Positions 39,880 to 44,611 of a DNA stretch of 64,000 nucleotides are shown in pieces; position 1 is the first letter of the stretch; every line of letters starts with the position of its first letter. Made by a program: the position numbers and the translations under genes. Below the pieces are notes generated by a model that saw nothing but the letters and a program-made list of their open reading frames with translations, was not told where the DNA came from and searched no databases. The stretch spans positions 1 through 64,000 of the forward strand of contig JANRJM010000018.1 of the NCBI GenBank assembly GCA_033763975.1, read 5' to 3'. The stretch is from Planctomycetota bacterium (GTDB lineage: Bacteria; Planctomycetota; Phycisphaerae; Phycisphaerales; UBA1924).

Positions 39880-40029
39880 CCGGATGTCTTCAACCCGTCC
39901 GCGACCGCTCGCGAACGGCGTCTTCGAGAAAATCCGTTCGTTCCGGGCGGACCGTTCCCGAGTTGGGTGGTTCGGACGCCGCGCCGGGCGACGGGAGTTC
40001 GGTTCGAGTTTTGTGCGTATCTTGTACGG

Positions 40030-40641
40030 ATGAGTGTGGTGCGCGAACGTGGAAGGGTGGGTGGTTCGGTGGGCGTGCTCTGCGACAGCCAGATCCGAGA
40101 GCGAGTGCGGATCGAGCCCTTCGAGGCCGCGGTGAAGCGCCCGGGGCGCATCTCCTACGGCGTGTCGTCGTACGGGTACGACGTCCGCGTGGGCAACCGC
40201 TTCAAGATCTTCACCCCCACGCCCCGCACCGGGCAGATCACCGTCGTGGACCCCAAGGCCTTCACCGACGACCTGATGGTCGAGGTCGATTGCGGCGCGC
40301 TCGGGCTCGACCACGTGATCATCCCGCCCAACTCCTTCGCGCTGTGCGAGACGGTGGAGTACATCGAGGTTCCGCGCGACGTGCTGGTGATCTGCCTGGG
40401 CAAGAGCACCTACGCCCGCTGCGGGCTCATCGTGAACGTCACGCCGCTCGAGCCCGAGTGGCGCGGCAAGGTCACGCTGGAAATCTCCAACACCACGCCC
40501 CTGCCGGCCAAGGTCTACGCGAACGAGGGCGTCGCGCAGTTCGTGTTCCTGCAGGCCGAGCAGGTGTGCGAGAAGAGCTACGCCGACAAGGGTGGGAAGT
40601 ACCAGGACCAGGGTGGATTGACGTTGCCGAAAGTGGATTGA
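40030..40641 (+). CDS. dcd: dCTP deaminase
   Basis: Dcd converts dCTP to dUTP, the step that feeds dTMP synthesis. The protein shows [105 protein letters not shown], with the nucleotide-binding and catalytic residues of the trimeric dUTPase-like fold (the catalytic Glu is in TPLEPEW). The length is about 190 residues. The start is uncertain: ATG at 40030, or GTG at 40069, which gives the family N-terminus and has GGGTGG upstream. It lies just before nrdJ, so enzymes of deoxynucleotide supply are close together, with a possible mobile cassette between them. Confidence 0.92.
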
Positions 40642-40647
40642 ACAGCA

Positions 40648-40676
40648 GGCATTCGGGATTGGGCATTCGGCATTCG
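40648..40676 (+). repeat. left inverted repeat of the cassette
   Basis: 29 bp, starting ggcattcggg and ending ggcattcg; it matches the reverse complement of 41061-41089 with three mismatches. Confidence 0.85.
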
Positions 40677-40701
40677 AGGTGGCACATGCGTGGGGCGGGT
40701 C

Positions 40702-41070
40702 ATGAGTGCGATCAGATCACACCGAGACTTGCGGGCATGGCAGTTCGCGTACGCCCTGGGTTTGCGGGTGGTGCGAGCGACCCGCACATTTCCGAAGCAC
40801 GAGATGTTCGCGCTCTCGCTGCAACTGCGAAGGTCTTCGGTATCCGTTCCGTCCAACATCGCGGAGGGCTTCGGACGAGGCAGCCGCGCCGACTACCTGA
40901 GGTTTCTCAAGATCGCGCGGGGCAGCTTGTTCGAGGTCGACACGCAACTGAGATTTGCGCTGGACTTGGGATATCTGAAGCCCGCCGGACACGAGAGCCT
41001 GCACACCGATTGGAATGAGGTCAGCAAGGTGCTCGCAGGTTTGATCAAGCGTATCGAATCGAATGCCTAA
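40702..41070 (+). CDS. four-helix-bundle protein of the 23S rRNA intervening-sequence (IVP) family
   Basis: A 122-residue all-helical protein. The hallmark features are the start HRDLRAWQFAYALGLRVVRAT, FPKHEMFALSLQLRRSSVSVPSNIAEGFGRGS and DYLRFLKIARGSLFEVDTQLRFALDLGY, the pattern of the IVP/S23 family, which is related to the Avd protein of diversity-generating retroelements and forms basic pentamers that bind nucleic acid. The ATG at 40702 is preferred over a GTG at 40690. The gene lies inside a pair of 29-bp inverted repeats; its final codons and stop are within the right repeat. No reverse transcriptase or variable-repeat gene is nearby, so an Avd role is unlikely. Confidence 0.88.
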   Translation: MSAIRSHRDLRAWQFAYALGLRVVRATRTFPKHEMFALSLQLRRSSVSVPSNIAEGFGRGSRADYLRFLKIARGSLFEVDTQLRFALDLGYLKPAGHESLHTDWNEVSKVLAGLIKRIESNA

Positions 41071-41089
41071 TGCCGAATCACGAATGCCG
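41061..41089 (-). repeat. right inverted repeat of the cassette
   Basis: 29 bp, the inverse of the left repeat with three mismatches. It includes the end of the IVP gene, whose stop codon TAA is at 41068-41070. Confidence 0.85.
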
Positions 41090-41134
41090 CAGAGCGCATC
41101 TGCGTAACGCGGACGACCAGGTCAGGAATCACGC

Positions 41135-44611
<3,477 letters not shown>

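Follow-up and report, generated by a model that had tools for sequence, protein, structure and literature searches.

Introduction

The closest described relatives of the element discussed here are the intervening sequences (IVSs) of 23S rRNA genes that contain an S23p/IVP reading frame. According to the parts of PMC4990558 considered here, the Coxiella IVS has tandem GACAGAT heptamers upstream of its reading frame, the Xanthomonas IVP is a homopentameric toroid, and a mobile origin of IVSs was proposed earlier (Burgin 1990; Ralph and McClelland 1993, cited therein). A second group of described sequences is the heptameric repeats of Xanthomonas and Nostoc, which are mostly intergenic, G-rich 7-nt units that most often occur as four units (PMC4692102, in the sections considered here). 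The same sections report 70 and 75 convergent inverted heptamer pairs in two xanthomonads, and Rehm et al. report that for 90% of the Xanthomonas repeats the neighbouring genes are the same in two species (PMC4692102). These conserved positions speak against frequent movement in Xanthomonas. Heptameric simple repeats of this kind are also called STRRs.

The IVP family, the 23S intervening sequences and the intergenic heptamers are treated apart in the papers considered here. A search of the open-licence papers in PMC brought up none that links IVP, inverted repeats and heptamers.

A cassette between dcd and nrdJ

The window is the whole stretch of 64,000 nt that was analysed, and it belongs to a planctomycete genome of 3.27 Mb (G000) that was studied within a set of 61 genomes made up of G000 and its relatives (G001 and so on). 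The locus lies between two host genes on the plus strand. On the left is dcd (dCTP deaminase), whose open frame spans 39967..40641, with the true start inside this frame and a TIGR02274 match over frame residues 38-222. On the right is nrdJ (B12-dependent ribonucleotide reductase; 41135..44611; TIGR02504, PRK06556). The left arm (40648..40677, plus strand) begins 6 nt past the dcd stop codon and contains the four 7-nt units GGCATTC, GGGATTG, GGCATTC and GGCATTC. The right arm (41059..41088, minus strand) is an inverted array that reads GGCATTC, GTGATTC, GGCATTA and GGCATTC on the minus strand. Between the arms is an IVP/S23 four-helix-bundle gene (40702..41070, plus strand) that encodes 122 aa from the ATG at 40702, with a GTG at 40690 as a possible upstream start.

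A preliminary description of this locus, made from the letters alone, had named the gene as IVP, and profile searches bear this out: PF05635 matched at an E of 7e-36 (123 bits against a curated cut-off of 33.8) and TIGR02436 at an E of 1.5e-34 (118.4 bits against 24). Its account of the arms was also accurate in that 26 of 29 positions match when inverted (40648-40676 against 41060-41088; 27 of 30 when each arm is extended by one position, 40648-40677 against 41059-41088) and in that the stop codon, TAA at 41068-41070, falls inside the right arm. The arms had been described as built from ggcattcg words. Repeated words are indeed present, but they are tandem arrays of the 7-nt unit GGCATTC, which Tandem Repeats Finder reported as a period-7 array of 4.1 copies at 40648-40676. 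The inverted-match score of the arms is 22.5, and the maximum was 14.5 among 2000 pairs of flanks resampled from a first-order Markov chain. The arm pattern has four matches in the window, all within the two arms, where 0.01 would be expected. When the whole unit was folded as RNA, a check proposed in the preliminary description, the ends paired, with 27 of the 30 left-arm bases joined to the right arm in a predicted structure with a z of -3.63. A search of Rfam over 40400-41300 gave no match at an E of 0.1 or better. The unit sits outside a 23S rRNA gene, unlike the 23S IVSs, and is a resident copy with an intact reading frame between dcd and nrdJ.

The AlphaFold model of the protein, a monomer, has a mean pLDDT of 96.7. 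Its best match in the PDB is 2gsc (E 1e-8, TM 0.89), followed by 2rld, and both entries contain five chains. Later matches include Avd and DGR complexes (4dwl, 8ub7; E about 0.02-0.3, TM 0.66-0.80). By profile the protein matches families of the IVP/Avd type only and not Y1 (HUH) transposases.

Inverted arms as the general architecture of IVP loci

IVP homologues were found in 39 of the 61 genomes, G000 included. The 83 rows of matches correspond, by our count, to 81 genes, and 71 of these were analysed after the ten of the weakest were left out. With a threshold of 14 or more for the inverted-arm score, arms are present at 58 of these 71 loci. Control pairings of flanks from different loci reached the threshold in 3.3% of 4858 cases, and windows of equal geometry within the same loci did so in 2.0% of 2232. 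A second set spans Planctomycetota, Bacteroidota, Acidobacteriota, Pseudomonadota, Bacillota, candidate-phyla bacteria and others, and consists of the best 80 of at least 586 related stretches from a scan of one genome per species, in which both the scan motif and the ranking favour close homologues. Arms were found at 56 of these 80 loci, compared with 2.3% of 6320 cross pairs and 0.6% of 3929 same-locus windows. The homologues that scored under 14 number 13 of the 71 and 24 of the 80. All 12 plasmid IVP loci, a set taken without control pairs that comprises 11 from cyanobacteria (two of them near-copies) and one from Riemerella, score between 15.5 and 31.5.

The arms follow common rules. On the coding strand, the left arm has more G than C at 107 of the 114 armed loci, fewer at four and equal numbers at three. 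The best unit period is 7 at 76 of these loci, 8 at 36, and 6 and 9 at one each. The unit differs from locus to locus, is common to both arms of a locus, and faces one way. At 98 of 112 loci, at least 80% of the units have an AG or GG dinucleotide in the same phase, while the mirror test with CT or CC is positive at 9 of 112. The first position of the 7-nt units is A in 75% and G in 23%, the second is G in 93%, and the remaining ones are weakly conserved; the phase was picked to favour AG in these frequencies, for which the mirror test is the fair control. The GACAGAT heptamers of Coxiella fit this AG-N5 pattern. Four or five units per arm are found at 73 of 112 loci. An extreme in size is a planctomycete locus (L166) in which each arm exceeds 200 nt and has about 32 units of the GGTGGAC kind.

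On a quick protein tree built from few columns, unit length changes 12 times over 106 rows; six ambiguous rows were left out. For the label 'eight' the tree requires 15 changes, compared with a mean of 28.7 after shuffling, and none of 500 shuffles was as low. Loci of one unit length group together on the tree, and plain shared descent of the gene together with its arms would explain this too.

Arrays elsewhere in the genome and its relatives

Arrays related to the arms, other copies of which the preliminary description had named as a sign of mobility, are present elsewhere in G000. The arm pattern has 58 matches there and the reversed-pattern control has none. By our grouping the matches form 15 clusters, one of them that of the window. 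The 14 others were fetched and read by eye; they are apparently intergenic, and none contains an IVP gene, the genome search having placed the two IVP genes of G000 elsewhere. Two of the clusters, L025 and L029, consist of inverted pairs without a gene. Arm arrays are scattered over G000, mostly without an IVP gene. The second IVP gene of the genome (L037 1855-2277; G000:C6:9911-10255) is 45% identical to that of the window and is flanked by a different inverted repeat of AGCGAGACAGCGAA words, classed as 8-nt, which begins at the stop codon of the gene before it. Tandem arrays of AGTCCCC, of CACTCCAC-like and of TCACCTCC-like units were also seen beside GGCATTC clusters (L027, L032 and L036) and are possibly the remains of other cassettes.

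In the congener G001, the IVP gene at the dcd site carries an in-frame TGA. One 29-nt arm of this cassette, GGCATTCGGCATTCGTGATTCGGCATTCG, is present as an exact copy at 13 of 18 dispersed G001 loci that were fetched because they match the arm pattern. Inverted pairs were recognised at seven of these 18 loci, and their loops, 25-51 nt long, appear unrelated by eye.

The number of GGCATTC-pattern matches was compared among genomes, for which the reversed-pattern controls gave 0-5 matches. There are 58 in G000, 84 in G001 and 71 in G003, where the IVP genes have arms of the GGCATTC type; 3 in G002, 3 in G004, 10 in G005 and 6 in G006; and none in G011 or G020, 3 in G022 and 11 in G028. An exception is G016, which has 125 matches, yet none of its four fetched IVP genes has GGCATTC arms. 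Among 21 genomes of our choosing, a pattern of the AAGGCATC type occurred in 9 of the 10 that have an IVP gene and in 1 of the 11 in which none was found; incomplete drafts may hide IVP genes. The two departures are G011 (6 matches, no IVP found) and G004 (IVP present, 0 matches). Arrays of these two kinds of unit are plentiful mainly in the genomes that have IVP genes.

The dcd-nrdJ junction in relatives

Of 30 returned dcd loci 21 were read, three of which are without nrdJ or the dcd end. An IVP gene closely follows dcd in G000, G001, G003, G006, G008 (decayed), G015, G017, G019 and G031; in the eight genomes besides G000 the distance is within about 160 nt, and in G023 and G009 the gene is further off. 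The arms at these other dcd-site IVP genes (ten genomes) are similar in two and different or undetected in the rest. A comparison of junctions, as the preliminary description had suggested, brought out empty sites within the same genus (G002, G004 and G005). Together with G010, G011 and G016, these genomes have dcd and nrdJ 39-151 nt apart with no IVP gene between them. Other sequence occupies the gap in G018, G012 and G007, and small reading frames seem to fill it in G018 (L120) and G012 (L133). The dcd-nrdJ junction is possibly a general spot for insertions.

On the Dcd/NrdJ tree, genomes with a filled site are intermingled with empty ones, and monophyly of the nine dcd-site IVP genes that were tested is not rejected (p-AU 0.32). 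The site has thus seen more than one gain or loss. An early grouping suggested that IVP genes had arrived there twice, but this grouping included the doubtful L049 and omitted L041, later found to belong, and the AU test did not uphold it. The history of the site is compatible with one old vertical lineage, and both gain and loss would fit it. A gene at the same site in all relatives with diverged flanks and no arms elsewhere had been put forward as the picture that would speak against mobility; half of it is seen, in that relatives do have IVP genes at this site, while arms elsewhere and empty sites are both present.

Filled and empty sites in plasmids of Nostoc and other cyanobacteria

In a row of hypothetical genes, a 417-nt IVP cassette is present in pNsp_a, pC052_D and the N6 plasmid. 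The same junction is empty in pNsp_c, pC052_A, pC052_B, pNsp_b and C057_H, in which the two genes are 3 nt apart, and C057_A has another small gene there. With gaps excluded, pNsp_a shares 90-96% identity with the five plasmids in which the site is empty. At the next junction pNsp_c has a different IVP cassette, which accounts for 506 nt relative to pC052_A (93% identity) and is absent from eight other compared plasmids. The third case is a 182-nt gene-less hairpin with heptamer ends of the same kind, which lies inside the IVP gene of the N6 copy (L231, about 1194-1376) and is missing from pNsp_a and pC052_D. By blastn this element matches 98 places in 43 plasmid records. The repeated letters at the three insertion points, read by eye, amount to about 3 nt, up to 5-6 nt, and 0-1 nt, and no target duplication of fixed length was seen in these three base-level cases.

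Presence and absence at precise sites, read from aligned plasmid sequences, shows that the class is mobile in cyanobacterial plasmids. Gain rather than loss appears to be the direction in Nostoc, because a junction of 3 nt between intact gene ends is naturally read as ancestral. The idea of a free-standing mobile cassette with no transposase of its own, put forward in the preliminary description, thus stands as to the kind of unit (that of the 23S IVSs) and as to the mobility of the class in Nostoc plasmids; the window copy itself is a putative mobile unit.

Several other plasmid sites were considered as junctions and set aside. At the TraM, ribonucleotide reductase and integrase sites the IVP gene is absent in relatives of 95%, 86% and 90% identity, respectively, and the spacers are too different for a base-level comparison. 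In pANA02 of Anabaena sp. 90 an IVP cassette whose left array is well over 200 nt (L224 1600-2440) lies in a type I-D CRISPR operon between cas6 and cas4; a related Dolichospermum plasmid has no IVP gene at this place, but another hairpin is there, and the site was rejected as a clean empty one. A recent hairpin insertion was also proposed from plasmids of Tolypothrix PCC 7601 and Microchaete NIES-3275. The 85-kb Tolypothrix record (NZ_CP064883.1; L260, L261) has its gene order twice and looks like two joined copies of a 42.6-kb plasmid; because of this apparent two-fold repeat its second copy is uninformative, and the case was dropped. In Nostoc edaphicum (L220 1995-2363), an IVP cassette lies on the opposite strand between two ribonucleotide reductase genes, so that it and the window cassette both adjoin genes of nucleotide metabolism. 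The phage collection gave no IVP match at an E of 1e-5.

Proposed mechanism and alternatives

We think it probable, on balance, that the window unit belongs to a widespread class of very small mobile cassettes that work in the manner of REPIN-RAYT systems, with the IVP as the putative arm-binding protein. Such a cassette would consist of a gene for a toroidal IVP/S23 protein between terminal inverted repeats, each arm being an array of about 4-5 units, 7 or 8 nt long, in which a purine-G dinucleotide keeps a fixed phase. The IVP pentamer may bind the arm as a single strand, with one subunit for each RG-N5/6 unit, and this binding could juxtapose the ends for use by a host enzyme or the replication fork. 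Hairpins that have matching arms but no gene would be carried in trans, as REPINs are by RAYTs, and old cassettes would decay into the heptamer arrays between genes that are called STRRs or heptameric SSRs. TRAP, also a ring protein, binds (G/U)AG triplets at regular spacing. By analogy, the five subunits, the 4-5 units per arm and the fixed RG at a spacing of 7 or 8 nt suggest that the IVP ring wraps one strand of the arm.

An unlikely alternative is that the arms serve the mRNA and that movement is incidental. The AG-rich 5' arm would pair with the 3' arm to form a stem cut by RNase III, like those of the 23S IVSs, or would be wrapped by the IVP ring, resulting in autoregulation of the cassette and separation of the flanking cistrons. 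This reading draws on the strand rule relative to the gene seen in the G-rich left arms (107 of 114), on the long stem predicted for the window unit, on the 10 of 12 plasmid loci in which the IVP gene is co-directional with its upstream neighbour, and on the excision of the Coxiella IVS by RNase III (PMC4990558, in the part considered here). It leaves unexplained the gene-less hairpins with the same arms, one of which lies inside an IVP gene.

We give an equally low chance to the possibility that a RAYT-like Y1 (HUH) transposase encoded elsewhere moves both cassettes and hairpins, with the IVP as a passenger or accessory. Y1_Tnp matches occur in 47 of the 61 genomes, with three in G000, the gene-less inverted pairs resemble REPINs, and the three insertion points show no consistent target duplication. 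However, the gene between the arms is IVP and not Y1, and Y1_Tnp was not found in the draft genome G023, which has five IVP matches, nor in the IVP-bearing drafts G007, G027 and G041.

It is improbable that the arms arose by replication slippage and template switching (quasi-palindrome correction) around a vertically inherited operon gene. The retention of the same site in many relatives, the single lineage that the AU test did not reject, and the variation in heptamer number among Coxiella strains (PMC4990558, in the same part) would all fit this origin. It is countered by the exact 29-nt arms at dispersed G001 loci, by the rarity of arms at matched windows of the same loci, and by the precise filled and empty plasmid sites, which contradict it for the Nostoc plasmids.

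Least probable by far is a retro-route in which a reverse transcriptase copies the cassette RNA with the IVP as an Avd-like helper: the model resembles Avd (4dwl, 8ub7) and the protein matches DivGenRetAVD weakly, at 23.6 bits where the cut-off is 80, but the RNA-based route allowed for in the preliminary description finds no support here, since RVT_1 was found in none of the seven genomes of the genus (G000 and six congeners, all drafts) and in 16 of the 61 genomes overall, compared with 39 for IVP. A reverse transcriptase is not needed in the genus, as far as the drafts show.

Returning to the arm-binding ring, a bolder version is that IVP cassettes constitute a new class of autonomous mobile element of ~400 nt, whose sole protein is a non-catalytic pentameric ring that wraps the RG-N5/6 arrays at the ends as single strands and hands these ends to the replication machinery, with the intergenic heptamers of many bacterial phyla as its tracks. 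We put this forward tentatively, as a possibility that is somewhat less likely than its opposite. The main reading would already link the S23/IVP family, the 23S rRNA intervening sequences and the intergenic heptameric repeats of Nostoc, Xanthomonas and others; if it is right, a single cassette class spread over many phyla has these repeats as its ends or remains, and what the ring protein does would become testable.

Comparison with known systems

The 23S IVS with an S23p/IVP frame, as in Coxiella (PMC4990558, in part), belongs to the same family, is of similar size (428 nt) and has inverted repeats. Unlike it, the window cassette is not in an rRNA gene, its arms are heptamer arrays and gene-less copies are dispersed; the IVP cassette class also differs in its presence and absence at precise plasmid sites. 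The arrays of the window and of G000 are tandem 7-nt units in intergenic DNA, as in STRR-like repeats. In the sections of PMC4692102 considered here, the heptameric repeats are described without a link to IVP and, in general, without association with mobile elements.

The comparison with TRAP, a ring protein with regularly spaced AG units, is an analogy only. The Avd protein of DGRs has the same fold (PMC10053308, in part), but no reverse transcriptase was found in G000. A parallel in organisation is offered by REPIN-RAYT systems (PMC3116915). In these, inverted repeats surround one gene and many gene-less pairs with variable loops are present. Gene-less inverted pairs with ends of the same kind were likewise found in G000 (L025, L029) and at the G001 loci. 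Unlike REPIN-RAYT, the protein of the IVP cassettes is a four-helix bundle in which no catalytic site is known, and their ends are tandem units of 7 or 8 nt. By this analogy, IVP cassettes would work like REPIN-RAYT systems but lack the Y1 gene that defines them.
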